A stretch of 54,676 nucleotides of DNA from Bacteroidales bacterium (lineage in GTDB: Bacteria; Bacteroidota; Bacteroidia; Bacteroidales; WCHB1-69). The stretch is taken from contig JAFYNM010000020.1 of the NCBI GenBank assembly GCA_017549765.1, forward strand, positions 1 through 54,676, in the 5' to 3' direction. The notes under the pieces are model-generated. The model saw nothing but the letters and a program-made list of their open reading frames with translations, made no database searches and was not told the DNA's origin. A program made the position numbers and the translations under genes. Of the stretch, positions 14,210-42,695 are shown one piece after another (position 1 is the stretch's first letter; the number at the start of each line of letters is the position of its first letter).

Positions 14210-14294
14210 ATGAAAAAATGGATATGATGGTAAACAGGAAATCGGTGTTTCATTCTTCTGGCGACACGGCATGGAGAATTGTTTTGCCCTGCAC

Positions 14295-14316
14295 CGCACG
14301 CCGGAGGTCTGCGGGG
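14295..14316. repeat. REP-like GC-rich element, copy 1 (inverted relative to 22349-22370)
   Basis: CGCACGCCGGAGGTCTGCGG and two further bases are the reverse complement of 22349-22370 with one mismatch. A third related copy is at 22408-22425. The copies lie on either side of the riboswitch-adhesin unit. The rest of 14230-14500 shows no gene. Confidence 0.5.
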
Positions 14317-14502
14317 ACCGGTGGGCCGTGAAGAAATGACGAAAAATGTGGATGGTTTCCGAAAATGTTCCGAAATTTGAGGGTTGTGGAGGGATGCAAC
14401 CAGAGCGACAATCCCGCCAAACAATGCTTATTTTATTGAAAAACAGCAAATTACCCCCCCCATATTTTTTGTAAAAAAGGGATATCCTATATAAATATTT
14501 TT

Positions 14503-14510
14503 TACTTTTG
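14503..14510 (+). promoter_or_regulatory. Bacteroidota -7 element driving the riboswitch transcript
   Basis: TACTTTTG matches TAnnTTTG. A transcription start about 6-7 nt downstream would fall at 14516-14517, exactly at the 5' strand of the riboswitch P1 stem. Confidence 0.7.
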
Positions 14511-14514
14511 AAAC

Positions 14515-14677
14515 TGATTCTTGGTGAGGGGTCCAGGCCCCGAGAGGGAAACAGGTGAGAGTCCTGTACAGTACCCGCTGCTGTGAGTTCCATCAATCTT
14601 TGCGCATGATGCCACTGTTATGTTCTATGGGAAGGCGCGCAACAGACGGAACGAGTCAGAAAACCTGCCAAGATTCA
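14515..14677 (+). ncRNA. Cobalamin (B12) riboswitch aptamer
   Basis: P1 is formed by TGATTCTTGG (14515-14524) and CCAAGATTCA (14668-14677), 9 of 10 pairs. Between these strands lie the expected conserved blocks of the cobalamin family: GGGAAACAGGTGAGAGTCCT with its short P3 stem (CAGG/CCTG), CCCGCTGCTGTGAG, GCCACTG, GGGAAGGCG and the B12 box GAGTCAGAAAACCTGCC (14653-14669). The order and spacing fit the known family; the B12 box differs slightly from the usual AGGAGACCTGCC. In known cases, adenosylcobalamin or related corrinoids bind the aptamer and lower expression of the gene downstream. Here the only gene downstream is the giant secreted protein at 14798. Confidence 0.93.
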
Positions 14678-14735
14678 TGAGTGTGAAAGCTTCGGGAAGT
14701 GAGCTGACGCAGGCTGCGAGCATCATAGTACAAGT

Positions 14736-14770
14736 TCCTGTCGTCCATTTTCCCGAATATGACGACGGGA
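14736..14770 (+). promoter_or_regulatory. Candidate riboswitch expression platform (terminator-like hairpin)
   Basis: TCCTGTCGTC (14736-14745) pairs with GACGACGGGA (14761-14770), 10 pairs including one G-U, followed by the T-rich TTATTTGTCT. The 15-nt loop contains TTCCCGAA (14750-14757), the exact complement of TTCGGGAA at 14691-14698 just after the aptamer. These could form competing or pseudoknotted structures. The T tract is weak, so translational control is also possible. Confidence 0.5.
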
Positions 14771-14797
14771 TTATTTGTCTAACTTTAAATACATACT

Positions 14798-17700
14798 ATG
14801 ATGAAAAAGTTACTCTTTCTTTTAGGCTTGATGAGCTTGCTGGCTTTCACGATAGAGACGCAGGCTCAGACTGTCTGGAACGGCACCGCGGATGTCTCGT
14901 GGTATAATGCCAGCCAGACCTCTTTTAACATCACCACGCCGGAGCAGTTGGCGGGTGTGGCGCAGTTGGTCAACAACGGCACCACGACCTTCAACGGTGT
15001 GACGTTGAACCTGATGAACGACATCTGGCTCAACAGCACGGGCGACTCCACCAACAACTGGACCCCCATCGGCGGCGGCTCGCCTACGAGCCAGTCACCA
15101 GAGGCGGGCAATGCATTCCAGGGCGTCTTTAATGGCCATGGCCATGCTGTTTTCAACATGTATTGCGACAAGACCAACACGTTCCATGCGGGTCTATTCT
15201 GTGCTGTCAAGAATCCATCCACCATCGATTCGTTGGTGATGGTTAATCCCGTTGTGAAATCACGAGGCATGATGGGTGCTATCATCGGCTTTACTCGTAG
15301 TGGAGGAGGTCCTGTTTATGTTCGTAACTGCCTGGTGGTCAATGCCCGCCTGCAAGGTTCGACGGGTACTGATGACGGTAACATTGGTTGTATTATTGGT
15401 GCATCCTATAGCAATGAAGCTGGGAACTTTATTCAGGATTGCGGTGCCACGGGATGGGTTTCGGGTCTCTATGTGGGTGGTATTGGCGGTAACTGTATGC
15501 ACGAAACTATCACGAACTGTTATTTTGCAGGAACTATTGAAGGCAATAACAATGCCAATGCTGGTGGCATTTCTGGTTATTCCGGTACTCGTAACAACTG
15601 CTATTCATATCCGTTGGCTCTAATGGGAAACGGTCAAGGGAATGGTACGATTGTATCTCAAGCTGATTTGCAGTCGGACGAGATGATTACGCTGTTAGGA
15701 GATGCGTTTAGAAAAGACTGCTGCTTCAATAATGGATATCCTGTCATGTCCTATATGCCTGGAATGGAACCCACTGCAGAGGAAATTTGTACTGGTGAAT
15801 CCGTAACACTAAGAGCTTTTGGTTTTGGCAGTTATCTCTGGTCCACAGGTGAGAGCACGGATTCTATTGTGGTTTCTCCCACTTCCACTACGACCTATAC
15901 CGTCACAGGTACAGCATACGGAACAAACTTTTCTGTTAATTCTACCATTACCGTTTATCCGCAGGCTGTCATAACAGCTTCCGTGGCACCGAGCGCGGAT
16001 GGACAAGTACATGCCACTCTCAATCAATATACCTTCACGGTTCCTTGTGGCAGTTCTGACAATATTACCCTTATTGTTACTCCCGATATCAACTATCGGG
16101 TGAACCAAGTGACACTGAATGGTGTTGCTTTGTATGATGAAGGCAGTTTCAGCGAAGGTGTAACATCTTTTCAGATTAATCCCGGAGGTACTCTTGGCGA
16201 GATCAGAGTCTATCTCACCAATATCTATACCTTGACTACCACGCTGTTGGATAATATGGGAGACACGCTCCATTATACCCATTTGGTGCAACCCTACGGG
16301 ACAGATGGCCTTTATGTTATGAATGCAGGCGATACGTTGGTGGTTGACATCAATAATACAGACCGCTGGGTTTTGACGGATGCGACGATAGACGGAATCT
16401 CTGTGGGTACTGTATCCTCTTATACTTTTGCCGATATCCACGAGAACCATACTATCGTAGCCACCTATATGGATGTCTGCGGTATTGACACGCTGCCCTT
16501 CTTCGATGGCTTTGAATATCCTCAGGGAACGTTCCCTGACTGCTATTTCAGAAACCCGGCCAATCCTTCTATTCCATTCATAGGCCAAGATCCGTATCAG
16601 GGTACCTATTCTATGAGTGCTCTTAATAACATTGCTATTGGAGAATATGCTGCCAATGTTCCATGCCTTATTTTGCCCAAACTTGATGATCAAATAGATG
16701 TTACCACTTTGATGGTTCAATTCTATGGAAAAGTGACGGCTGAATGTCATTATGTGGTGGGTGTGATGACAGATCCTACGGATATGTCCACTTTTACCAG
16801 TGTCCAAACCATATATCCAACGGGTACTACGGGCACATACGGCCAATATTCGGCATATTTGGCAAATTATCAGGGAACAGGAAAATATATAGCTATCAAA
16901 TTCCCATTGCCTGCATGGCAATATATGATAATTGATAATCTTTTAGTAGATGTGGCTCCGCCATGTTCTCCTATTTCCGATCTTCAGGCAAGTAATATTT
17001 TTGCCACGAATGCCACCATCTCCTGGAATCCCACAGTGGTGGGCACACCGCAGCAATACCATGTTGTAGTAAAGGACATGACTACCCAGACTGTCACTAC
17101 CTTTACGACTACCGACACTACCTATTTGTTGACTAACTTGTCAGAGCAGACTACCTATCAGGTGGGTGTCTATACAGATTGCACCAACAATTTTTCCAGC
17201 GATACGGTGTTCACATCATTTACTACTACCTGTCTGTCGCCTGTATTTGTTGAGTTAGCTGGTGATCCGGATGATCCATCTTCTGCCGGTGTTTTTTATA
17301 TGCCTCCTTCTGATTTTTCTTCCAATTATTCGTATAGTCAGCAGTGGTTTTATGCGGATCAATTAGGTGTTACACCAAGAGATTTCACCTCTATCTATTT
17401 CCATTGTGGTTCACAAGTGTCTGTGACAAGATATTGGAATGTTTATGTGGCAATCAGCGATATTAGTTCTACCGGCATGATGGGTTTCGAGGTTCCGACA
17501 GCAAGTCACCCCTTCCAATTAGTGTATTCAGGTATTGTGAATGTATCACCAGGGCCTGATGGTTGGTTTGAACTTGAACTGGATGCCCCTTTCAGTTACA
17601 ATGGGCATGACGATTATGTGCTGGCTATTGCGGATAATACGGGCTCTTCTACTACCTCACCTGGTTTTTATATTCACGTAGATTGGGAAGGTTTGACAGG

Positions 17701-20700
17701 AAGCTTGGTTACTTATGGTACCCATGGCCCTGTTGACATTAATAATCCATCCTCTTTTATAGGTATGATGGAGGGCTTTTGGTGGTCCAACGACATTCGT
17801 TTTGGTTATTGTAATTCTACCACCTGTCTTGTTCCTAATACCTTGACTATTTCCAATGTTACGGATAATGCTGCTGATGTATCTTGGTATAGCACGGATT
17901 CTGTAGCCACGTGGGAGGTTCAGTATCATACGGCTGCTGACACCAACTGGATAACCGCCGCAACGGTGAGCGTTCCTAGCTACTCGTTCACTGGTTTGAA
18001 TCCCAATACGGAGTATTCTGTTCGTATCCGTACTATCTGTAGCAGTACGAGTGTCAGTTCCTGGAGCCCGGTGGAGACTTTCCGCACAGAATGTGTAAAC
18101 ATCACGGCCATTCCCTATTTTGAAGATTTCGAGAACACCTTAAATCTCTATAGCACCAACCAAGGAACTTATATCACCTGTTGGGACCGCTATGCTTCCA
18201 GCGAATCGCACTATGTGCATATCCCGAGCAACGGCAATGCCCATAGTGGTTCACACTTTCTGGATTTCCATCAAACTCCTAACTGCTTTGATATAGCCAT
18301 CATGCCGGCTTTGGATGCTTCCATCGATCTAAGCACTCTAATGTCCCACTTCTATGCTCGTAAAACAGGCACGACCGGTACTTTGGAAGTGGGAGTGATG
18401 ACGGATCCTGCAGATCCGACCACCTTTGAAGCTTTGGATACCATTGACCTCTCTGCCTATGCAACGAATGTGTATTATGAAAATGTGGTATATTTTGAGA
18501 ATTATGGTGGTGTTGGCCGACATATTGCCTTCCGCGCTTCCAATGCGGATAATTGTAGCTTTTATATTGATGATGTGACGTTGCAAGAAATCCCCAATTG
18601 TGTGAATCCTGCTAATTTTAATATGGTGAGTTGTGATTCCAGTAATGCTACGTTGAATTGGACAGAGGCGGGGAACGCCGTCACATGGAACATCCTGTAT
18701 GGTCCTGCGGGCTTCAATCCAGAGACCGAAGGCGTGGAGGTGGTGGCGGACACTACAACCTTCACCATTGGCAATCTTGCCTCCATCACGACATACGAGT
18801 TCTATGTACAATCCAATTGCGGAGGTGCACAGAGCGAATGGATAGGCCCTGTATTTGCGACCACGGATCTCTATGTTATGACGACTACTGGTTTTAATGA
18901 TCTCACCACTTGCGGAGCCATTATTTGTGACGATGGTGGACTTTTCGGTGATTTAAGTGGTGGTTGTAATTCCACGTTGGTAGTATATCCTGCTAATCCT
19001 GGCGCAATGATGAAATTGACGGGTACCTGTTCTGTGATAGGCCCCCCAGGTGCTCCAATGACTTTTGGTCATCTTTATATCTATGATGGAGAAGGAACTT
19101 CCGGAACTGAATTGCTCCATGTTTGTGGTACCAACAATCAAATATCTGTAATTTCCACCACGGGTCCGTTGACCATACATTTCACTTCTGGTTCAGCTGG
19201 TGGCAATTATGTTTTGACGGCGCAATGTGTTAACTGTTTCCCGCCAACCAATGTAGTGGCAGACACGACTGCTGCAAATCAGGCAACACTATCTTGGAGC
19301 GGTGTGACAGACAGCTATAGTGTGTATGTATATGGCCCGGATACCACTTATTATACCACCACAGACACCTTTATCACCATTAACAACCTGATGCCTGGTA
19401 CTGCCTACCGTGCACAGGTCCGTTCACTTTGTGCCCCGGATTCCTCCGACTTGTCTTCTGTATGCTATTTCAGCACTGCTTGCGCCCCGATTACAATAAC
19501 AGCGACTACGCCTTGGGTTGAGTCTTTTGAGAACTATCCTGGAAGTGGCGAACAACCGTTTGTTTGCTGGGAACCACTGGCGACAGATGCGATTTATAAC
19601 GGTCCATTTGTTTATTGTGGTCACGCTCCTTCCTGTCACTCCGGTTCCAACTCCGCTGAAATGAAAGGTTCCTACAACTTGCTGGTTCTTCCTGCGTTTA
19701 GCAATGATGTCATGGATTTACGTCTCTCTTTCTGGGCAACGGCCACAAATACAAATCTAGGTGTTTTGGAGGTCGGCGTTGTGACTGACATGAACAATCC
19801 TAACTCCTTTGTGGTTTTGGATACCTGTGGAGCGCCGGGCCCCCGTGGAGGGAGTGGATCTGGTAATGGAAACCTTATGGGACCGTACGATTTCAATACC
19901 ATCGCTTCAGGTGTTGGACGTATTGCTCTTCGTTATACCAACACCATCGCTTCTGCCTCCTGGAATCTGGATGACTTCAAGGTGGAGCTGATACCCGATT
20001 GCCCTTCACCGGTGAAGTATAGTGTCACGGCCTCCAATGTAGGCAGCCATACAGCCACGATTTCCTTTACGGATAATGTCCCCACCCACAACTCCTGGAC
20101 CGTTTACTATAAACCGTCTTCCAGTACTGCTTGGGCTTCCGTTGTCACGAACACTACCTCTGTGGACCTTGTGAGTCTCAATGCCTCAACTACATACGAC
20201 GTATATGTGGTGACTAACTGCAGTACGCCGACTTCCCAAGCTGATGCCACCCATACCATTCATTTTACTACAGCAGTTGCTTGTCCTGCTCCTACGAACT
20301 TGACAGTTTCCGATGTTACCATGTCTTCGGCCACCATTTCATGGCAAGGAACGGCCGATAGTTACAATATCACCTATGGGACCGACAATACCTCTACGAT
20401 GATGAACTTCGTGAATCTTGGTTATCTTACCCCGGGTACCACCTATCTGGTCTCCGTGGTGTCTGACTGTGGTGTGGAAGGAACTTCCACCGCAGCAACC
20501 GTTACGTTTACCACTCCTTTGTGCGATGTTGCTGACCAATGTGTCTATACCTTCCACATGACCGACTCCTATGGTGATGGCTGGAACAATGCTACGATTA
20601 CTGTCAAGCAGGGTGGTCTGGTTGTGGCCAATATCGGCCTCAATAGTGGCAATCTCGGTACAGCTACTGTGTCCTTGTGTGACAACCAGCCCACCACCTT

Positions 20701-22258
20701 GATTTGGAATTCCGGTAATTATGACGACGAATGCAGTTTCACTATATTCGATGCGTATGAAAATGTGATTTATGCCTCTTCGGGTACGCCATCCGACACG
20801 CTGACTACTTTCACTGCCAACTGTACACCTCCTTCCTGTCCGCCGCCTGCCGACATTACGATTTCCAATATCGGTCCAGCTTCGGCTCAAGTTGCATGGA
20901 CAACAATAGGGACGGCGACCAACTGGAATTTGGAGTACAAGAAAGAGACCGACACCATCTGGACGGTTGTGCCGGTTACCACCAACTCGTACACCCTGAC
21001 AGGTTTGACTGCTCTCACCAACTATAATGTACGAATTCAGACCAACTGTGGCAATGGGGATGTGTCCAACTACAGAACCACTTCGTTTATGACAACGCTT
21101 TGCGAGATGGCTAATCAATGTACCTACACTTTCCTCTTGCGCGATAACTATGGCGACGGATGGACTGGCGGCCATATTTCTATCGTGCAAGATGGACAGG
21201 AGGTGGCTCAGTTAGAAGCTGTTGACCATAACCTTTTCAATACACTAACCACCGATACTGTGATCGTCAATTTATGCGACAACATGTCCACTTCTTTGAT
21301 TTGGACCGCAGGTGACTATCCAGAGGAGGCAAGCTTTTTCTTGATAGGTCCTGATGGTACTACCATGTATTACTCTTCTTCAATGTACAACTACACCACC
21401 TATACCTTCACCACCAATTGTAGTGGTTCCGGTCCGGCTTTGTGTGTCACACCGTTAGGTTTGGTTGTAGGCACGCCGACGCAGACCGATGCCACTGCCA
21501 CGTGGATGGCAGGTAGCACAGAGACAACCTGGAACTTTGAGTACAAGGCTGCTTCCGCCACCACATGGCAGAGCAGTACTGTCCATATGCCTTCCTTCAC
21601 GATGTACGGCCTGATGCCGAACACTGCTTATCAGGTGCGTGTACAGGCTGTGTGCGACACCAACTTAACCAGTGACTGGACCGAGGCTGTGACCTTCACA
21701 ACGGCTCAGGAGCAGCAGACCTGTCCGGCCCCGACGAACCTGACAGCCACTATTGACGCCACGAGCCACACCACCGTGACGCTGACCTGGCAACAGGAGC
21801 CCAATACGGCCGACGAATGGCAAGTGAACTACCGTCAAACAACGGAGAGCGACTGGAGCACAGCCACGGCCACCAGCACTACCTACACGCTGACCGACCT
21901 CGTCCCGAATGTCGATTATGAGGCCAATGTGGTGGCGCACTGCACCAACGGACTGACGAGCGATCCTTCCAACACGGTGACCTGGCACACCGACGATGTG
22001 GGCATCCAAGGTTATTTGGAGAGAAACGTCAACCTCTACCCGAACCCGGCCACGGAGATGATTGCTGTGGAGGTGAGCGATGCCAACATCATGATCACGG
22101 GTGTGGAGGTATATAACGTCTATGGCCAGTTGATCAACACGATTGTCTCCACGGAGAATCCTCTGCGCATCAACGTCAGCGGTCTGGCCGACGGCATGTA
22201 CTATGTGCGTGTCACGACCGACAATGGTGTGGTGACGAAGAACTTTGTGAAGAGATAG
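14798..22258 (+). CDS. Giant T9SS-secreted adhesin-like protein under cobalamin riboswitch control
   Basis: A 2,486-residue protein with signal peptide 1-24 (MMKKLLFLLGLMSLLAF, ending QAQ). Domains in rough order: GLUG/beta-helix-like region (about 25-300); Ig-like module (325-390, SYLWSTGESTDSI); three choice-of-anchor-J / cleaved-adhesin-like domains (about 565-720, 1098-1267, 1563-1735), each opening like PYFEDFEN and ending in YIDDVTL-type strands; about nine fibronectin-III domains; a CUB-like domain (1360-1480, HLYIYDGEGTSG); and twin modules with DSYGDGWNN and DNYGDGWTG (about 1908-2010, 2105-2210). The last ~80 residues are a T9SS type A sorting domain (VNLYPNPATEMI, then GMYYVRVTTDNG). 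Cleaved-adhesin domains are known from Porphyromonas hemagglutinins and gingipains. It is monocistronic: promoter 14503, riboswitch, this gene, terminator 22298-22337. Ligand unknown; a role in corrinoid or host-surface binding is inference only. Confidence 0.9.
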   Translation: MMKKLLFLLGLMSLLAFTIETQAQTVWNGTADVSWYNASQTSFNITTPEQLAGVAQLVNNGTTTFNGVTLNLMNDIWLNSTGDSTNNWTPIGGGSPTSQSPEAGNAFQGVFNGHGHAVFNMYCDKTNTFHAGLFCAVKNPSTIDSLVMVNPVVKSRGMMGAIIGFTRSGGGPVYVRNCLVVNARLQGSTGTDDGNIGCIIGASYSNEAGNFIQDCGATGWVSGLYVGGIGGNCMHETITNCYFAGTIEGNNNANAGGISGYSGTRNNCYSYPLALMGNGQGNGTIVSQADLQSDEMITLLGDAFRKDCCFNNGYPVMSYMPGMEPTAEEICTGESVTLRAFGFGSYLWSTGESTDSIVVSPTSTTTYTVTGTAYGTNFSVNSTITVYPQAVITASVAPSADGQVHATLNQYTFTVPCGSSDNITLIVTPDINYRVNQVTLNGVALYDEGSFSEGVTSFQINPGGTLGEIRVYLTNIYTLTTTLLDNMGDTLHYTHLVQPYGTDGLYVMNAGDTLVVDINNTDRWVLTDATIDGISVGTVSSYTFADIHENHTIVATYMDVCGIDTLPFFDGFEYPQGTFPDCYFRNPANPSIPFIGQDPYQGTYSMSALNNIAIGEYAANVPCLILPKLDDQIDVTTLMVQFYGKVTAECHYVVGVMTDPTDMSTFTSVQTIYPTGTTGTYGQYSAYLANYQGTGKYIAIKFPLPAWQYMIIDNLLVDVAPPCSPISDLQASNIFATNATISWNPTVVGTPQQYHVVVKDMTTQTVTTFTTTDTTYLLTNLSEQTTYQVGVYTDCTNNFSSDTVFTSFTTTCLSPVFVELAGDPDDPSSAGVFYMPPSDFSSNYSYSQQWFYADQLGVTPRDFTSIYFHCGSQVSVTRYWNVYVAISDISSTGMMGFEVPTASHPFQLVYSGIVNVSPGPDGWFELELDAPFSYNGHDDYVLAIADNTGSSTTSPGFYIHVDWEGLTGSLVTYGTHGPVDINNPSSFIGMMEGFWWSNDIRFGYCNSTTCLVPNTLTISNVTDNAADVSWYSTDSVATWEVQYHTAADTNWITAATVSVPSYSFTGLNPNTEYSVRIRTICSSTSVSSWSPVETFRTECVNITAIPYFEDFENTLNLYSTNQGTYITCWDRYASSESHYVHIPSNGNAHSGSHFLDFHQTPNCFDIAIMPALDASIDLSTLMSHFYARKTGTTGTLEVGVMTDPADPTTFEALDTIDLSAYATNVYYENVVYFENYGGVGRHIAFRASNADNCSFYIDDVTLQEIPNCVNPANFNMVSCDSSNATLNWTEAGNAVTWNILYGPAGFNPETEGVEVVADTTTFTIGNLASITTYEFYVQSNCGGAQSEWIGPVFATTDLYVMTTTGFNDLTTCGAIICDDGGLFGDLSGGCNSTLVVYPANPGAMMKLTGTCSVIGPPGAPMTFGHLYIYDGEGTSGTELLHVCGTNNQISVISTTGPLTIHFTSGSAGGNYVLTAQCVNCFPPTNVVADTTAANQATLSWSGVTDSYSVYVYGPDTTYYTTTDTFITINNLMPGTAYRAQVRSLCAPDSSDLSSVCYFSTACAPITITATTPWVESFENYPGSGEQPFVCWEPLATDAIYNGPFVYCGHAPSCHSGSNSAEMKGSYNLLVLPAFSNDVMDLRLSFWATATNTNLGVLEVGVVTDMNNPNSFVVLDTCGAPGPRGGSGSGNGNLMGPYDFNTIASGVGRIALRYTNTIASASWNLDDFKVELIPDCPSPVKYSVTASNVGSHTATISFTDNVPTHNSWTVYYKPSSSTAWASVVTNTTSVDLVSLNASTTYDVYVVTNCSTPTSQADATHTIHFTTAVACPAPTNLTVSDVTMSSATISWQGTADSYNITYGTDNTSTMMNFVNLGYLTPGTTYLVSVVSDCGVEGTSTAATVTFTTPLCDVADQCVYTFHMTDSYGDGWNNATITVKQGGLVVANIGLNSGNLGTATVSLCDNQPTTLIWNSGNYDDECSFTIFDAYENVIYASSGTPSDTLTTFTANCTPPSCPPPADITISNIGPASAQVAWTTIGTATNWNLEYKKETDTIWTVVPVTTNSYTLTGLTALTNYNVRIQTNCGNGDVSNYRTTSFMTTLCEMANQCTYTFLLRDNYGDGWTGGHISIVQDGQEVAQLEAVDHNLFNTLTTDTVIVNLCDNMSTSLIWTAGDYPEEASFFLIGPDGTTMYYSSSMYNYTTYTFTTNCSGSGPALCVTPLGLVVGTPTQTDATATWMAGSTETTWNFEYKAASATTWQSSTVHMPSFTMYGLMPNTAYQVRVQAVCDTNLTSDWTEAVTFTTAQEQQTCPAPTNLTATIDATSHTTVTLTWQQEPNTADEWQVNYRQTTESDWSTATATSTTYTLTDLVPNVDYEANVVAHCTNGLTSDPSNTVTWHTDDVGIQGYLERNVNLYPNPATEMIAVEVSDANIMITGVEVYNVYGQLINTIVSTENPLRINVSGLADGMYYVRVTTDNGVVTKNFVKR

Positions 22259-22297
22259 CCATTCGGCTGTTGGCTGTTAGCTATTAGCTGTTATTTT

Positions 22298-22337
22298 AAG
22301 GACGCTGGTTCCGAGATGGGAACTGGCGTCCTTTTTT
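22298..22337 (+). terminator. Rho-independent terminator of the giant adhesin gene
   Basis: 22298-22312 pairs with 22319-22333 (15 continuous pairs including two G-U), with a 6-nt loop and a run of T at 22332-22337. It begins 39 nt after the stop codon, so the riboswitch unit is monocistronic. Confidence 0.88.
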
Positions 22338-22348
22338 CTTTGTGTCCT

Positions 22349-22370
22349 CCCCGCACACCTCCGGCGTGCG
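22349..22370. repeat. REP-like GC-rich element, copy 2
   Basis: CCCCGCACACCTCCGGCGTG and two further bases are the inverted copy of 14295-14316 with one mismatch. Confidence 0.5.
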
Positions 22371-22407
22371 ATTGCGCGTGCCGTACCGTTTCATGGCTAC
22401 CGACCCA

Positions 22408-22425
22408 TGCAGACCTCCGGCCTGC
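22408..22425. repeat. REP-like GC-rich element, copy 3
   Basis: TGCAGACCTCCGGCCTGC shares the core GCAGACCTCCGGC with the reverse complement of copy 1. Confidence 0.4.
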
Positions 22426-22471
22426 CGGGGTCACCCGGTCCGTTCATTCAATCAACAAATCAGCATCCATT

Positions 22472-22594
22472 CCCCTTAACTTCTTAGTTTTTTAACTCCT
22501 TCCACTACCCCGCCCTTCGGGCACCCCTTCTCCAAAGAAGGGGAATCGCGCCCCTCCTCAACAAATCAACACTCTTCGTGTCCTTTGTAGTGTT
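22472..22594. repeat. Left direct repeat flanking the RhuM gene
   Basis: About 120 bp nearly identical to 23559-23691. Its core contains two hairpins: GCCC-TTC-GGGC and CCCCTTCT-CCAA-AGAAGGGG. It begins at the stop codon of the minus-strand RhuM gene, just as the right copy begins at the stop of tadA. The left copy lacks about 10 bp of the TTAACTTCTTAA part. Confidence 0.85.
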
Positions 22595-23471
22595 ACGCAA
22601 ACAATTGCAGCAGGGTAGTGACAACCATGGGCTCTTCAATTCTTGTCACTACGAATATCCTTTTTCCTAAATCTTTGAAAGATGCTCCGAAATGATAAAG
22701 CTGTGAATTGTCCAAGATCAAGAAACGATCATGTACTTTGGTAATTGTTGTTATAAATACAGGTGGGTATTGCGAGTTGTATTTTTCGAGGTCAGAACGA
22801 AGCTGGGGAGTGATTCTTTCTGTATAGATGGTTGCCTTAACACCAACTTGACGCTTCCCCAATAACATCAGAACGGATTCGTCAATATAATTATCAACCA
22901 GTTTGATGTCTTGATGTGCTTTGCGAATCAGATCTGCTGCAAAAACGTATGCGTCAAAGGTTTCGCCATTGAAGAAAAGGCCCGCCTTGGGAGGAAGCGC
23001 AGTCTGCACCAGCTCTTTAATTTGATGTTCTGTTAGAGAAACCCTTTGTTCGAGCTTTTTCAAGCGGTCGCTAAGAGGGAAACCATACATAAAGTACTCC
23101 TTCAAGAGATTGTTAGCCCATTGTCTGAATGCTATTCCTTTTTTCGTGTTGACTCTAAACCCAACAGAGATGATTACATCCAGATTGTAAAACTCTATAT
23201 ATCTCTTAACTAGACGTTTGCCTTCCTTTTGAACAAGTTCCAAAATGGAACAAGTTGCTTCTTTGTCTAATTCGCTAACCTCAAAGATGTGCTTCAAATG
23301 TTTGGTGATAGCTTGTCGTTGAGTTCCAAACAGTGTTGCCATCTGTGCCTGTGTGAGCCAGACGGTATCTTCGGCTACACGAACTTCGAGATATATTTCG
23401 TCTGTAGGATGATAGACTACTGTCTCTTGCTGAGAATCGTTTTTGCAGGGCAGATTGTTTCCCATTGTCAT
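22593..23471 (-). CDS. RhuM-family protein with PLD-like C-terminus
   Basis: A 292-residue protein. The N-terminal half is a RhuM (virulence protein) domain: VWLTQAQMATLFGTQRQAIT (DNA-binding-like), HIFEVSELDKEATCS, RYIEFYNLDVIISVGFRVN and GIAFRQWANNLLKEYFMYGF. The C-terminal half (about 170-292) looks phospholipase-D-like: IKLVDNYIDESVLMLL, then VHDRFLILDNSQLYHFGASF, where HDRFLILD stands in for the HxK(x4)D motif with Arg for Lys. RhuM proteins occur on genomic islands and phage-related loci; their biochemical function is unsettled. Start at 23471, with 23465 (MGNN) possible. The gene has its own -7 element (23487-23494) and a palindrome upstream (23508-23528), and it is flanked by 120-130-bp direct repeats, which suggests insertion as a unit. 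Confidence 0.85.
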   Translation of the reverse strand: MTMGNNLPCKNDSQQETVVYHPTDEIYLEVRVAEDTVWLTQAQMATLFGTQRQAITKHLKHIFEVSELDKEATCSILELVQKEGKRLVKRYIEFYNLDVIISVGFRVNTKKGIAFRQWANNLLKEYFMYGFPLSDRLKKLEQRVSLTEHQIKELVQTALPPKAGLFFNGETFDAYVFAADLIRKAHQDIKLVDNYIDESVLMLLGKRQVGVKATIYTERITPQLRSDLEKYNSQYPPVFITTITKVHDRFLILDNSQLYHFGASFKDLGKRIFVVTRIEEPMVVTTLLQLFA

Positions 23472-23486
23472 GCGATTTTACGTCGG

Positions 23487-23494
23487 CAAAGATA
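23487..23494 (-). promoter_or_regulatory. Bacteroidota -7 element for the RhuM gene
   Basis: Minus strand TATCTTTG, exact TAnnTTTG match, 16 nt from the start at 23471. Confidence 0.7.
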
Positions 23495-23507
23495 CAAAAA
23501 TCATATA

Positions 23508-23528
23508 ACATATTGATATTCAATATGT
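23508..23528. promoter_or_regulatory. Perfect palindrome, candidate operator of the RhuM gene
   Basis: ACATATTGA-TAT-TCAATATGT, a 9-bp-arm perfect inverted repeat centred about 27 bp upstream of the -7 element, so it would cover the -33 region. This suggests binding by a dimeric repressor, perhaps the RhuM protein itself. Confidence 0.5.
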
Positions 23529-23558
23529 TTTTAACAATTATTCGTTAAGAAATGTGCC

Positions 23559-23691
23559 CCCCTTAACTTCTTAGTTTCTTAACTTCTTAATAACTTTCCC
23601 ACTACCCCGCCCTTCGGGCACCCCTTCTCCAAAGAAGGGGAATCGCGCCCCTCCTCAACAAATCAACATTCTCCGTGCTCTTTGTGGTGTT
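23559..23691. repeat. Right direct repeat flanking the RhuM gene
   Basis: Near-identical to 22472-22594, including both core hairpins and TCAACAAATCAACA. It abuts the stop codon of tadA (23693). It starts with CCCCTTAACTTCTTAGTTTC, which is also a motif of the composite intergenic microrepeat. Confidence 0.85.
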
Positions 23692-35927: not shown

Positions 35928-38900
35928 TTACAATATGGTGATAGTCCCTTTGAACAGGAGAGGTCTTCCATTCGGATTGGTGCACCGGATGATGTAGCTG
36001 TAGATGTTGTCGCGCATGAGTTTGCCGTTCACCGTTCCATCCCATCGGAACTGTTTGTCGCGGGACTGGTAGATGAGGCTGCCCCAGCGGTTGTAGATGA
36101 GGATTTCAAAGTCGTCGATCTGGTTGTGATATCTCTCGGGGAGGAAGAACTCGTCGTTCAGGCCGTCGCCATTGCCGGGGGTGATGGTGTTGGGAAGGTA
36201 GAGAATCAGTTCGCAATCCTTCAACTGATAGGAGGTGGAGTTGACGCAACTATTCTGGGAGACTGTCACGCTGTAAGTGCCCGACTCTGTGACGGTGATT
36301 TCAGGACTGGTCTCGCCAGTGCTCCAGAGATAATTTTCCATCTCGGTGTTCACATACAGGATGGCCGTATGGTCCTCGCAGTAATACTCTGTCAGGGGCA
36401 CGATGCGGAGCGATGTGTCGATGATGGAGAGTCGGAGTTCCACAATGCTGTCGCATCCTTTTTCGGTCTGCAGGTTGAGATTCCGTTGCAACAGGTCTTG
36501 CCCGACAGTCTCTAAAGGAGAGATGCTGAAGCCATGGTTTAGATATCCTTCACCTTCGCAGATCTCGTCTTCAAAATGGAGATTGTATTGGGGGTTGACG
36601 ATCAGGATGAGCACGATCAGGCTGTCGCAGTGGCCGGTGGAGAACAGCTGTTCGAAGCGGTGTTCGCCGGGTTGGCTGAGCACCTCGGCGGGGATGTCGA
36701 ATCCCTGGATCTGGCAGGGGACATTCTGGCAGGTCTCCACGGTGATGGTGTCGTTGTAGTAGGACCACACATAGACGTTGACGGTGTTGCTATAGACGGT
36801 GCCACAGGCTTGGCTGATCCAGGCGCGTCTGAGGGAGAGGTTGTCGGAGGCCACATCGGGGTAGATATAGTCTTGGCCGTCGTTGCTCCCGGGGGCGGGG
36901 GCCCAGGTGGTGCCGTCGGTGGAGATCTGCCATTGATAGGCACTCTGATCCCCTCCGGAGGCGGCATTGCCGGTGAATGGCTCCAGGGTTCCGGAGCCAC
37001 AGAGATTCTGGTCGTCGGCGATGGTGCCGGGTGTCAGCTCGCCACTCAGGGTGTTGAGGGTCACGGAGGCTGTGGCCGCGCATCCTAACGGGTCGGTGAC
37101 GGTGAAGAGATAGGTGCCGGCGGGCTGGCTGGACAGCGTGGTGCTGGAGGAGAGCGTCGCGCCCGCCGCATTGGTCCACTGGTAGGTCAGCGGAGACTGT
37201 CCGCCGGTGACCACTGCTACCGCTCCGCCCGTGGAGTCCCCATGACAGAGCACATGGGTGGTCTCTCCTATCGAGGTCGTCATCTGGTCTGCCGACAAGT
37301 GGAGGTGCACGGTGCTGTCAGCCCCATGCAGGGTGTTCAGGGAATAGGTGTGCTGCCCGGCGGCCGTGAAGGTGTGGCCGCGCCATGTGTAGGGCAACTC
37401 CGTGGCACAAACAGTCGTGTCGAAAGTGGCAGAAGTGTTCAGATATACCGTCAGGTTCAAGGTGATGGTGCTGTCACAACCGGCCCCGTTGGTCAGCGGC
37501 TGTGTATAGACGCCCGTTGTCTGGTAGGAGACCCCGTTCAAGACGTAGGGCAGCTGGTTCTCCACGATGGTGGCCGTGATGACTGTGTCGGTGCTGGGCA
37601 GTGTCGATACGGTCATGGTCACCACACTATCGACTCCGTTGGCGGCCGTCAAGGTGCTGTTCTGGGTGCCGGCGGCCGTGAAGAGCTTCCCGTTCCACGT
37701 GAGCGGATACTGGCTGGCACAGACAGCACTGTCCACCGCCGTGTGCACATTGTGGAGCACATTCAGATGCACCGTCAGGGTGCTGTCACAACCGTGGGCG
37801 TTGTTCAGGTGCTGGACATAGGTGCCGGTATCCGTCATGCTCTGGCCGTTCATCACCAAGGGCAAGGCATTCTCCAGCACGGTGGTGTCGATGGTGAGGG
37901 CGGTCTGTACATGCACTGGCAAGGTGATGATGGTGTCATAGGTGCATCCATAATCGTCGAAGAAATGGACGACATAGCTGGCCAGCGTGTCGTGTGCCAG
38001 GGTGCTGGGAGGGGTGATGGTGAAGGTGGTGTCGGTCGCAGGCTGCACCCAGGGACCGTCCACCGTCGCAGAGGTCACGGGGTTGCTGCTGACAGGCAAC
38101 AGGGAGGGATCCAGGGCCAACTCCCAGCCGAAGATATAGCCGTTGTCGCCACTCCAAGCATCCACCACCTCTATGTACCAAGAGCCGTTGAGCGGACAGC
38201 CTATCAGGTTGGAGAACGACTGGTCGGGATGGTAGAAATGGGTGCCCGCGGCCACGTTGGAGGAATCGACCCTGTCGTTGTGCGCGTTGGCCGACCGGTA
38301 GATCAGGCTCCCCGCACCTGGGGCATAGGAATAGCCCTCTGTCGAGTTGTTCGACCAGCAGTAGTTCCATCCCGTGCCAGGCTGGTTCCCACTGGCATTA
38401 GGATTACAATCGTCCCACAGACTCTCATAGTCGTATGCATTGCCTAAGAAAGTCCACCTGTTCATGTTGGAGCCACTCTGCCAACCAATGGCACCTGAGG
38501 GTACCACCTGGTTACAGTTGGAGGTTCCGCTTCCGCCATACTTGAGGATGTGAGCCTTCTGGCCGTTGGGACAGGTGATGTTGATATAGAGATCGCCGAT
38601 ATAGGAGTGCTCCATGTTGAGACGTACGAATAAGATATCGTTCACACTCTGGATGGAGGCATTGGGTGCGAAGTCGGTGAAGGTCAGCGGTGAACGGTAG
38701 GAACAGCCGTAGGGTGGACAGGAGACACCGTCGGGCAGGAAGATGGTTTCCGCCAACGCCAGGGAGGACACGCCATGGGCCAGCTGCACGGTGGCGGTAT
38801 TACTATAGCCGATGGTCATGGAATAGTTGTTTCCCGCACACATCTCAAAGGCGTTGACGGCCGCCACCCCGTCGATGTCCGAGGAGGCGATGGTGTGGCT

Positions 38901-41900
38901 CGCCTCGGCGGAACACCCGTTGCTGTCGGTCACAGTCACCGAATAGGTCCCCGGCTGCGAGACGGTCACCGTCTGGCTGGTGGCACCGGTGCTCCAATGG
39001 TAGGCGGCGGCGCTGTCGGCTGTCAGCACGACATTGTTCTGGGGGCATATAAAGGAGGAGCCCGTGATGGCTGTGGTCATCGCGGGCCACACCGTGACGG
39101 TCATCACCACCGTGCTGTCGGCGCCGCTGGCCGCGGCGAGCACGGCACTCTGCGTGCCCGCCGCCGTGAAGGTCTTGCCGTTCCAGGTGAAAGGAAGCTG
39201 TTCCGGACATATCACGCTGTCAACGGCGGTCTCCACGTTGTAAAAGACGGTCAGATACAGCGTGACGGTGCGCACGCACCCCTCGGGCGTGGTCACATGA
39301 TGGACGAAGCAGCCCGCCGAGTCGCACACAATACCGCTGATGGTCACGGGCAGCTCGTTCTCCAGGACGGTGGCCCAGAGGGTCGTGTCCACGGCGAAAC
39401 CGATCGTCACCGACACGGCCACGATGCTGTCGGCGCCGGGGGCCACGGGATAGACGGTGGTCTGGCTGCCGCTCTCCGTGAAGGTGGCCCCGTGCCACGT
39501 CAAGGGCGTGGCGGCGTTGCAGAATAGGGTGTCGTATTGATAGAGGACGGACAGATGCAGGGTGACGGTGCTGTCGGCGCCGTACTGGCTCGTCAGGTGG
39601 GCGGTCTGCACACAGGGCGACACCAGCGGGGTGCCCTGCCACATATAGGGCAGCTGCGAGGCCTCCACGGTGTCGTAGAGGTCGAGTTGGTAGGGGATGA
39701 AGAAATGAGCCGTGACGGTCGTCTCCGCAACGCATCCATTACTGTCGGTGAGCGTCACGGTATAGGACGCGGCGGTGTCGTGGGTGAGGGTGCCCGGCGG
39801 CGACACGACGAGCAGGGTGTCGTGCCATAGGCCGGCCCACGGCCCCGACACGGCGAAGCTGTAGCCGGAGGCATGGCCAGAAGAGGTCCCGATAGCGACG
39901 GTGTCGCCGGTGCCGGCGGCGAGGTTGCCCAAGGACACGACGGGCGTGGGTGTGTCATAGGTCTGGAGGTGCAGCATCTGGACGCCCGTGCAGCCGCCGG
40001 ACTCGGTGTAGGTGTGTGTCTGGGTGCCCGGCCCTGTGAAAAGGACGCCCCGCCATGACATGGGCAGCTGGCTGGCGCAGACCACTGTGTCGGCAAAGAG
40101 CGTGTCGGGGCTCTCAGTCACATGCAGCACCAGCGTCTCCACGCTGTCGCACTGGTGGGCGGTGGTGAACGACAGCACCACGCTGTCCTCCCCGGTGAAC
40201 CAGCGCCCCCGCCACAAGAGCGGCAGGTCGGCGGAACAGACGGTCGTGTCATGCTGCGCAGAATGGCTGTCGAAGATGGTGATGTGGGCGAAGATGATGC
40301 TGTCGCAGCCGTTGGAACCCTCGACAATCAGGTTGGTGGTGGCGCTCTGGGTAAAGGTCTGGCCGTTCCACTCCAATGGCCCGCAGGAGGCGGTGTCCAC
40401 ATTGGACATGCTGATGTTGAGACGGTCCACCGTCAGCACCAGCACACTGTCGCACAGGTCGCTGTTCTGCAAGGTCAGCGACTTGGTGCCGGCGTTCACA
40501 AAGGTCAGCCCGTGCCAGACAAACGGGAAGGAGCTGTTGCAGACACTCGTGTCCAGATAGGTCGTGTCGGACTGATAGACCGTCACACCGACATGGTGGA
40601 TGTACGGGCAGCCGTCCCCGTTGGTGAGCTGCTGCTCATAGAGGCCCGACGCGGTATAGACCGTCCCGTGGAAGTCGAGCAGGTCGCAGACCGTCGTGTC
40701 GGTCCACCGGGCGGTGGTGTCTCCCACCGTCACGGTCATGACCACCAGGCTGTCGCACTGGTGCGACGTCAACAGCTGCGCCGTCTGCTGGCCGGGACCC
40801 GTGAAGGTCTTCCCGTTCCAGATGAGCGGCAGGCTCGCGGGACAGACGAGGCTGTCCGCTTCCGTCATTTCCGAATAGAAAACCGACAGCTCCACGGTCA
40901 CCAGGCTGTCGCACCCGTTCTCCGCCGTGAAGGTCTGCTCGTAGGTGCCCGACTCGTCATACTCCACCCCGTTCCAGACAAACAGCTCGCAGACGGAGGT
41001 GTCTATGAGCGTGGCCGGCACGGGGAGGACGTTGAGCGTCATCACCACCAGACTGTCGTAGTAGGGCGTCGGGTGGAGCGTGGCGGTCTGGGTGCCCGCC
41101 TCGGCGAACAGCAGCCCGTTCCACACCAGGGGCAGCGCGCCGGCACAGACGGTGCTGTCCACATACGTCGGGTCGGGCTGCAGGATGACCAGCGTCAGGA
41201 CGACAACGCTGTCGCAACCGTTCTGGGCGGTATGGTGGATGGCATGGCTGCCGGAGGTGTTCCACACGGAATCCCCGTATTGGTAATAGCCGTAGGCGGT
41301 GACGGTTTGGTAGGTATAGACCGGCGGGATAACCGTCAGTGTCAGCCGTTCTATGCTGTCACAGCCCTGCGAGTTGATGGCGTAGAAGGTATAGACGCCC
41401 TCCTGGTCCAGGGTGATGTTGTGCCACGTGGCGGGCAGCTCCGACTCACAGACGGTCTGTGTGTAATAGGTGACCTCCGCATCCCTGACGGTCAAATCCA
41501 GGATAAGCGTGCTGTCGCAGCCATGCTGGTTCTGCAAGATATGGGTGTAGATGCCCGAATACGGGTAGGTCTGGCCGAACCACTGGTATCCGTCGCAGGT
41601 GTCCACAGCCAGGTAGGTGGTGTCGCCCGTATGGATGGTCAGATGCAGCACCGCCACGCTGTCGCAGCCCGACTGGCTGGAGAAGCGCTGGGTGTAGGTG
41701 CCGTCTTGGTAGTAGGTCTGGCCGTGCCAGTTGTACGGACCGCAGCTGCTGACGTCCAATACCGTGGTGTCCATCGGTAAGACTGTCAAAATCAGCGTGA
41801 CGAAAGAGGAACAGCCGTTGAGCATCACCGTGCGGGTGCGGAGGATGTTGCCCGGCACGCTTGTCTCGTCTGCCGTCAAGGAAAACCCGTTGGCTTCATA

Positions 41901-42695
41901 GGGCTCGCCTTGGCAGATCTGTTCATAGATGTTCTGCGGCATACTCTGGGCTACAAGGATCGTCTGCGATTCACTGTTCTGGCAGCCGATCTCGTTGGTG
42001 ACCGTTACAGTGTAGGTTGTTGTCTGGGACGGCGTGACTTGGATATAGGGGGTGGTGTCTCCCGTGTTCCAGAGGTAGGTCAGAGAGGTGTCGTACTCTG
42101 CTGGCGGAATCGTGAAACTGCGAATGGCACGCACTTGTTGGAAAGATTGACGAGGCATATCCTGAGGCCTTCCGTACACGCTCATCCATGCATGATTATT
42201 ATTTTGGAGTGTACTACTCCAATATTGGCCTGCGGGCAACGAACCTCCCGCCGCAATTATTTCTTGTTCTATAAAAGGACGACTGGCAAACAACTTAAGC
42301 AATTGTCCGATGGCAGGAAGATACCAACCGTTCTGAAAATCCACCACTGTGGCAGCAATAGAGTTTTGAGTGGATAAGGAGGACCGAATAATCTGGGTAT
42401 TGGTATATCCTGCCGTATCTGCATCCACCAGTTGATATGCATCCAGACACCACTCATCACACTGATCCAGAAAATGGTTTAGTCCCGGAATTATCGTAGT
42501 GTTTTGACTCCATCTGCAACTCGAAGATGCATCTTGTAAAGCTACCACCCAACCTCCACTTCCATCCGGGTGAAGGTAAAAAATGATTCCTTGACTCCCA
42601 TCCGGTGCTGTATATAAGTCCCCAATCCGGTAGTGTTGTCCCCAAAGACTTCCTGCCAGAAAGAAAAAAGTTATATATGCAATTATTCGTTTCAT
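35928..42695 (-). CDS. Giant repeat-rich T9SS type B secreted protein
   Basis: A 2,255-residue protein with signal peptide MKRIIAYITFFFLAGSLWGQ. Residues about 22-195 are a FISUMP/DUF1566-like domain (GWYLPAIGQLLKLF, then QYWSSTLQNN). After an Ig-like module (about 205-250) come more than 20 repeats of ~50-75 residues (about 260-1230, 1600-1820 and 1985-2110), each with a VC...LP..WNG..FT..G core and a closing GCDS-type motif; in some copies the Cys is Ala, Val or Tyr (GADS, GVDS, YYDS). A proprotein-convertase P-domain-like segment lies at about 1335-1535 (MEHSYIGDLYINITCPNGQK, then GSWYIEVVDAWSGDNGYIFG), a SprB-like repeat at about 1820-1890, and a T9SS type B sorting domain at about 2165-2255 (NTITPGNGDGLNDEF, IYNRWGSLIYQS). 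It starts 12 nt after the 775-residue gene, so the two form an operon. Target unknown. Confidence 0.92.
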   Translation of the reverse strand: MKRIIAYITFFFLAGSLWGQHYRIGDLYTAPDGSQGIIFYLHPDGSGGWVVALQDASSSCRWSQNTTIIPGLNHFLDQCDEWCLDAYQLVDADTAGYTNTQIIRSSLSTQNSIAATVVDFQNGWYLPAIGQLLKLFASRPFIEQEIIAAGGSLPAGQYWSSTLQNNNHAWMSVYGRPQDMPRQSFQQVRAIRSFTIPPAEYDTSLTYLWNTGDTTPYIQVTPSQTTTYTVTVTNEIGCQNSESQTILVAQSMPQNIYEQICQGEPYEANGFSLTADETSVPGNILRTRTVMLNGCSSFVTLILTVLPMDTTVLDVSSCGPYNWHGQTYYQDGTYTQRFSSQSGCDSVAVLHLTIHTGDTTYLAVDTCDGYQWFGQTYPYSGIYTHILQNQHGCDSTLILDLTVRDAEVTYYTQTVCESELPATWHNITLDQEGVYTFYAINSQGCDSIERLTLTVIPPVYTYQTVTAYGYYQYGDSVWNTSGSHAIHHTAQNGCDSVVVLTLVILQPDPTYVDSTVCAGALPLVWNGLLFAEAGTQTATLHPTPYYDSLVVMTLNVLPVPATLIDTSVCELFVWNGVEYDESGTYEQTFTAENGCDSLVTVELSVFYSEMTEADSLVCPASLPLIWNGKTFTGPGQQTAQLLTSHQCDSLVVMTVTVGDTTARWTDTTVCDLLDFHGTVYTASGLYEQQLTNGDGCPYIHHVGVTVYQSDTTYLDTSVCNSSFPFVWHGLTFVNAGTKSLTLQNSDLCDSVLVLTVDRLNISMSNVDTASCGPLEWNGQTFTQSATTNLIVEGSNGCDSIIFAHITIFDSHSAQHDTTVCSADLPLLWRGRWFTGEDSVVLSFTTAHQCDSVETLVLHVTESPDTLFADTVVCASQLPMSWRGVLFTGPGTQTHTYTESGGCTGVQMLHLQTYDTPTPVVSLGNLAAGTGDTVAIGTSSGHASGYSFAVSGPWAGLWHDTLLVVSPPGTLTHDTAASYTVTLTDSNGCVAETTVTAHFFIPYQLDLYDTVEASQLPYMWQGTPLVSPCVQTAHLTSQYGADSTVTLHLSVLYQYDTLFCNAATPLTWHGATFTESGSQTTVYPVAPGADSIVAVSVTIGFAVDTTLWATVLENELPVTISGIVCDSAGCFVHHVTTPEGCVRTVTLYLTVFYNVETAVDSVICPEQLPFTWNGKTFTAAGTQSAVLAAASGADSTVVMTVTVWPAMTTAITGSSFICPQNNVVLTADSAAAYHWSTGATSQTVTVSQPGTYSVTVTDSNGCSAEASHTIASSDIDGVAAVNAFEMCAGNNYSMTIGYSNTATVQLAHGVSSLALAETIFLPDGVSCPPYGCSYRSPLTFTDFAPNASIQSVNDILFVRLNMEHSYIGDLYINITCPNGQKAHILKYGGSGTSNCNQVVPSGAIGWQSGSNMNRWTFLGNAYDYESLWDDCNPNASGNQPGTGWNYCWSNNSTEGYSYAPGAGSLIYRSANAHNDRVDSSNVAAGTHFYHPDQSFSNLIGCPLNGSWYIEVVDAWSGDNGYIFGWELALDPSLLPVSSNPVTSATVDGPWVQPATDTTFTITPPSTLAHDTLASYVVHFFDDYGCTYDTIITLPVHVQTALTIDTTVLENALPLVMNGQSMTDTGTYVQHLNNAHGCDSTLTVHLNVLHNVHTAVDSAVCASQYPLTWNGKLFTAAGTQNSTLTAANGVDSVVTMTVSTLPSTDTVITATIVENQLPYVLNGVSYQTTGVYTQPLTNGAGCDSTITLNLTVYLNTSATFDTTVCATELPYTWRGHTFTAAGQHTYSLNTLHGADSTVHLHLSADQMTTSIGETTHVLCHGDSTGGAVAVVTGGQSPLTYQWTNAAGATLSSSTTLSSQPAGTYLFTVTDPLGCAATASVTLNTLSGELTPGTIADDQNLCGSGTLEPFTGNAASGGDQSAYQWQISTDGTTWAPAPGSNDGQDYIYPDVASDNLSLRRAWISQACGTVYSNTVNVYVWSYYNDTITVETCQNVPCQIQGFDIPAEVLSQPGEHRFEQLFSTGHCDSLIVLILIVNPQYNLHFEDEICEGEGYLNHGFSISPLETVGQDLLQRNLNLQTEKGCDSIVELRLSIIDTSLRIVPLTEYYCEDHTAILYVNTEMENYLWSTGETSPEITVTESGTYSVTVSQNSCVNSTSYQLKDCELILYLPNTITPGNGDGLNDEFFLPERYHNQIDDFEILIYNRWGSLIYQSRDKQFRWDGTVNGKLMRDNIYSYIIRCTNPNGRPLLFKGTITIL

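Follow-up and report, generated by a model that had tools for sequence, protein, structure and literature searches.

A cobalamin riboswitch before the gene of a giant T9SS-tailed protein in a Bacteroidales bacterium

Why should the gene of a giant protein with a type IX secretion system (T9SS) tail stand behind a cobalamin riboswitch? The question is raised by contig JAFYNM010000020.1 of the Bacteroidales assembly GCA_017549765.1 (genome G000), which was analysed over its full 54,676 nt (hereafter the window). The pairing of riboswitch and giant is real and was found in two species. With modest confidence, we lean towards a corrinoid-OFF riboswitch that would control an adhesin-like surface protein and whose leader would stem from a DUF4430-type T9SS gene for B12 capture.

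Aptamer, promoter and gene

The window was scanned with Rfam at gathering thresholds. The sole match was RF00174, far above its gathering score of 31.5 bits, which bears out the cobalamin aptamer proposed in a preliminary description of this DNA. The transcription unit comprises the following main features:

14503..14510, + strand: Bacteroidota -7 promoter box TACTTTTG (TAnnTTTG), read from the sequence; overlaps the riboswitch start
14505..14686, + strand: cobalamin riboswitch aptamer (RF00174, 93.9 bits, E 4e-22, model 1-189 of 189, not truncated)
14798..22258, + strand: open reading frame (ORF) of the giant T9SS-tailed protein P0001, 2486 aa (fn3, Por_Secre_tail, choice-of-anchor J, TIGR04183)
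22298..22337, + strand: terminator-like stem (22298-22333, 15 pairs) with T-rich tail

By eye, the P1 arms GATTCTTGG/CCAAGATTC were paired at 8 of 9 positions, close to the 9 of 10 counted before. In the window copy, no canonical -33 box was seen by eye. Among 107 riboswitch sites of the genus, 101 had a TAnnTTTG box where the riboswitch starts; among 1588 background windows, 18 had one. The gene starts 111 nt downstream of the RF00174 match, and the aptamer lies in the 5' leader behind the promoter.

The 2,486-residue T9SS-tailed protein was recovered as described earlier. Pfam gave fn3 in eight stretches and Por_Secre_tail (E 1.5e-12), and NCBIfam gave choice-of-anchor J in three stretches and TIGR04183 (E 8.8e-13); Por_Secre_tail and TIGR04183 mark a C-terminal T9SS sorting domain. 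The N-terminus, judged by eye only, has an MKK start and a hydrophobic stretch. Two further module types named earlier, CUB-like and YGDGW, had no Pfam match, though homologous blocks recur in related giants. Module 806-1005 had neither a Pfam nor a PDB sequence match. From its modules, P0001 is plausibly an adhesin-like surface protein. The genome holds a T9SS translocon (SprA_N, 542.7 bits), and Por_Secre_tail is matched 87 times in it at E <= 0.001. The terminator reported after the gene was found as a terminator-like stem and is dispersed sequence, a 63-nt stretch including it recurring on contig C7 of the same genome (G000:C7, 93.7%). When genome contigs were scanned for P0001, one relative was returned, from a Bacteroidales metagenome-assembled genome from yak abomasum, which hints at habitat only.

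Targets of the switch in the genus and its kinship

Forty genomes of the genus were surveyed with at most 48 first-look candidates scored per genome, and at least 108 cobalamin riboswitches were found. The first gene was classified at 106 of 108 sites (left out were G003:C180:5259, at a contig end, and G060:C83, L066, where no ORF was found), and the target families were confirmed on nine representatives. The first genes encoded class III ribonucleotide reductase (RNR; NrdD, 36), proteins of a DUF4430-type T9SS cluster (35), BtuG-like DUF5074 lipoproteins (25), DUF4465 proteins (3), CoA transferases (3), HpaB-like proteins (2) and giants (2). T9SS-type clusters supplied 40 of the 106, 38 of these 40 with DUF4430-type or DUF4465 domains, and T9SS tails were present in six of six scanned (L082, L136, L007, L162, L088 and the window protein). 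T9SS-type proteins are therefore an ordinary riboswitch target class in the genus, usually bearing domains that belong to established or probable corrinoid binders, and the giant does not stand as the isolated new type of target that it was first taken for.

Of these T9SS-type proteins, 37 formed one cluster, in which 35 members carried one to five FWVG (DUF4430-type) domains and several were also giants with fn3 and choice-of-anchor J (L082). Only the window giant and a giant of a second species (G005:C31) lacked the domain, as scored with our own FWVG hidden Markov model (HMM), whose training set was these riboswitch-linked proteins themselves. Since a PDB search with the FWVG profile gave no useful chain, the link to DUF4430 depends on Pfam, which matched 18 of 33 domain copies at E <= 0.01. 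What ties the family to corrinoid capture is that in 13 of the 25 BtuG-like units a DUF4430-type gene follows within 600 nt. Beyond the genus, 30 loci of the order were taken from among the matches listed, with the aptamer position set by an assumed flank length; of the 29 with an ORF, five had FWVG (one weakly, E 1.8e-4) and four showed similarity to DUF4465 proteins. T9SS-type proteins with DUF4430-type and DUF4465 domains, in many cases encoded directly after a BtuG-like gene, may represent a little-described B12-capture system of T9SS-bearing Bacteroidales.

The window genome has four switches, standing before class III RNR (C14), a CoA transferase (C1), a DUF4430-type T9SS protein (C24) and the giant. 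An NrdJ-type RNR is present beside the riboswitch-headed class III enzyme; for BtuB, the genome gave no match over the cut-off and six weak ones. Corrinoid repression of the targets would be expected from the riboswitch family; that class III RNR and BtuG-like proteins are targets where an NrdJ-type RNR is also present agrees with repression by B12.

The giants' switch was placed by comparison with G005:C31, where arrangement and spacing are the same and similar, respectively, and the switch scores 90.2 bits. The alignment of the two loci starts at window 14494, immediately ahead of the promoter box, and runs over 512 nt at 79.9% identity; sequence farther upstream can no longer be aligned. 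The N-termini are 65% identical. The two giants formed one clade (100/99) in a tree of 21 giant N-termini, adjoined by the switch-less G010:C40 and G000:C33 (86/93). In a tree of 107 riboswitches, whose bootstrap was not quite settled, their switches paired (96/83) and fell, together with the switches of DUF4430-type genes from G000, G005, G060 and G061, in a group supported at 100/97. Leaders of the giants and of the related DUF4430-type genes align through to the start codon. The position of the giants' switches within the DUF4430-type group suggests that the giant acquired its leader from a gene probably involved in B12 capture. Cobalamin riboswitch regulons would then include giant T9SS surface proteins besides uptake genes and isoenzymes, and copying of a riboswitch leader onto a different kind of surface gene would be one route of regulon growth.

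Known systems share parts of this arrangement. In Bacteroides thetaiotaomicron, B12 is described as repressing via cobalamin riboswitches before btu loci (PMC12751083, PMC8941943); RF00174, surface-protein targets and expected repression by B12 are common to both systems, whereas the targets there are B12-uptake lipoproteins and transporters and here a giant T9SS protein without a recognised corrinoid-binding domain. The DUF4430-type T9SS proteins of the genus (G000:C24, L007) share a near-related riboswitch and leader and the T9SS tail but have FWVG/DUF4430-type domains, of which the window giant has none. B12 binding is reported for the DUF4465 (BtuJ-type) family in PMC13398666; three genus members of T9SS-type architecture stand behind a switch, and the window giant has no DUF4465 match. 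Clostridioides difficile adhesins are under c-di-GMP riboswitch control (PMC11477304): there, too, a riboswitch couples surface-adhesin production to a small molecule, but the ligand is a second messenger and RNA and proteins are unrelated. No earlier report of a giant T9SS protein behind a cobalamin riboswitch came to light in the open library searched, which lacks most subscription papers.

Two further riboswitch units were observed. A four-gene unit at L101:638-5988 (G010:C27) and L142:476-5746 (G002:C42) encodes an HpaB-family protein, presumably of the 4-hydroxybutyryl-CoA dehydratase type, a CoA transferase, an iron alcohol dehydrogenase and a CoA-acylating aldehyde dehydrogenase (L101 scanned, L142 assigned by similar starts). 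The unit resembles a B12-independent pathway leading from succinate to butyrate. For Tannerella, PMC7160235 mentions a 4-hydroxybutyryl-CoA dehydratase gene preceded by a riboswitch. The order riboswitch, CoA transferase, small ORF, NAAT-family transporter-like gene was the same in three genomes (L006:6788-9071, G000:C1; L124:586-2815; L135:3668-5895; transporter scanned in L006 alone).

Proposed leader function and role of the giant

Between aptamer and start codon, two candidate elements of an expression platform were located:

14691..14698, + strand: TTCGGGAA, proposed L13 strand; form CTTCGGGA kept across the leaders compared
14736..14777, + strand: terminator-like hairpin, putative expression platform (10-pair stem, loop of 15, then TTATTTG)

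The hairpin arms are TCCTGTCGTC (14736-14745) and GACGACGGGA (14761-14770), and the loop contains TTCCCGAA (14750-14757), complementary to the proposed L13. A shorter TCCCG/CGGGA stem is the alternative to the 10-pair form. In the window the tail is weak, T-runs being stronger in the leaders of G000:C24, G005:C28, G061 and G060. As in the riboswitch class, we take L13 to kiss L5 CCCG when ligand is bound, a putative role here.

On the favoured reading, an ancestor of the giant gene would have acquired its promoter, aptamer and leader from a T9SS gene of the same lineage that encodes a DUF4430-type protein for B12 capture. Corrinoid binding would lead L13 to dock on L5; the stem further down would then form and end transcription. 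With no corrinoid, L13 would pair with TTCCCGAA in the stem loop and the 7.5 kb gene would be read. The giant would be exported via the T9SS, alongside production of the DUF4430-type T9SS protein (C24) and class III RNR (C14). An adhesin or scaffold, displayed on the surface when corrinoid is short, is our best guess at its role. In this uncultured Bacteroidales bacterium, what the cell surface is made of would then depend on B12 supply.

Several results weigh against this reading. RF00174 was not found at the loci of 19 other giants (in 18 of the 19, the scanned locus reached roughly 1 kb or farther upstream; for G031:C20 only 277 nt to the contig end). The paralogue at G000:C7 (L187:5343-9724; 1,365 aa, nearly the same signal sequence) has upstream DNA 95.6% identical to window 14295-14546, including promoter, first P1 arm and P2, and no counterpart of window 14547-14764; similarity resumes at 14765. 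With these 218 nt of aptamer and leader missing, the copy should be free of corrinoid control. Given this loss and the 19 giants without a switch, corrinoid control appears dispensable in the giant family. The proposed stem differs among close relatives (TTCCCG/CGGGAA forms in G000:C24 and G005:C31), and minimum free energy folding of the leader gave z = -1.17. In a simple scan of riboswitch leaders by target class, terminators were little or not above shuffles: 10/36 for NrdD (shuffles 0.13), 13/35 for DUF4430-type (0.25), 4/25 for BtuG-like (0.24), 3/3 for CoA transferase (0.37), 2/2 for giants (0.20), 0/2 for HpaB (0.23) and 0/3 for DUF4465 (0.42). The adhesin role, finally, is read solely from module types (fn3, choice-of-anchor J).

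Terminator-based control was accordingly dropped as a genus-wide rule. Because the stem varies among leaders and the scan lies near shuffle level, translational instead of transcriptional control is possible. Orthologues of the giant are not consistently without the switch, as G005:C31, the sole partner in its subclade, keeps it at similar spacing; the more distant giants are those where none was found. The simplest order of events would be a gain of the switch at the C7/C31 site, copying of the gene to the window site and loss of the switch at C7. The C7 paralogue, which retains its promoter but has lost most of the aptamer, offers a natural control.

A more specific account is possible but tentative: B12 shortage would remodel the surface, the riboswitch copied from a B12-capture gene turning on a giant T9SS adhesin by which the cell would attach to host glycoproteins, to particles or to neighbours that make corrinoids, while the sister copy, with most of its aptamer deleted, would have been freed from control. 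This would be a foraging answer to a missing vitamin.

The switch could also be a regulatory hitch-hiker, picked up as a working leader while giant genes of this family shuffled and exchanged pieces; the protein's function would be unrelated to corrinoids, and the control would bring little benefit. Its presence in two of the 21 giants of the tree, its loss at C7, the long blocks common to paralogues and the recent move into a new site all favour this. The switch was nevertheless kept in both lineages despite N-termini only 65% identical and unalignable DNA upstream of the promoter, and the aptamers still score 93.9 and 90.2 bits; we regard hitch-hiking as rather doubtful.

The giant might instead capture corrinoids itself, as the preliminary description had suggested, through an undescribed module such as residues 806-1005 or the N-terminal part, and hand them to uptake receptors. 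The cluster around it, with DUF4430-type domains in nearly all members and several giants of like architecture, speaks for this, as does module 806-1005, free of Pfam and PDB sequence matches. Searches of P0001 with Pfam, NCBIfam, the FWVG HMM and hhalign, however, found no DUF4430-type, DUF4465 or BtuG-like domain, and the PDB sequence search gave nothing pointing to corrinoid binding. By hhalign, nine P0001 modules reached at most 1.5% profile-profile probability against these three sets, with positive controls at 99.9-100% (the DUF4465 set had four rows only, and the FWVG control at 99.9% was probably already in the profile). Blocks homologous to the compared modules also occur in giants without the switch. 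Corrinoid capture by the giant is thus unsupported by its sequence, and we consider it unlikely.

A wrong join of leader and giant, conceivable in a draft genome of 36 contigs where dispersed repeats occur both at the ends of genes and near the insertion described below, is highly improbable given the same arrangement in G005, in diverged sequence at a different place, and a window leader not identical to that of G000:C24.

Insertion site and neighbouring genes

The riboswitch and giant lie within an insertion:

14231..23654, strand not assigned: insertion of about 9.4 kb with gmk on one side and the tadA/MutY-like end on the other; contains riboswitch, giant and RhuM-like gene (borders per G011)
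22593..23471, - strand: RhuM-family gene inside the insertion (PF13310, E 2.7e-21; 7 matches in the genome)

The insertion was absent from all five relatives fetched (G005, G011, G001, G061, G060), in which gmk and the MutY-like gene lie 0.6-0.8 kb apart vs about 10 kb in the window. Window 14231-23654 had no counterpart in G011 except short repeats. The G005 giant occupies a different site, behind a gene like that upstream of G000:C7.

Similar dispersed repeats flank the RhuM-like gene (window 22475-22588 and 23559-23686) and also occur at the gene ends of G000:C7, C10 and C33; they are a possible recombination site. The window encodes a second giant at 35928-42695 (- strand, 2,255 aa), with a CHU_C T9SS signal and a SprB-repeat match.

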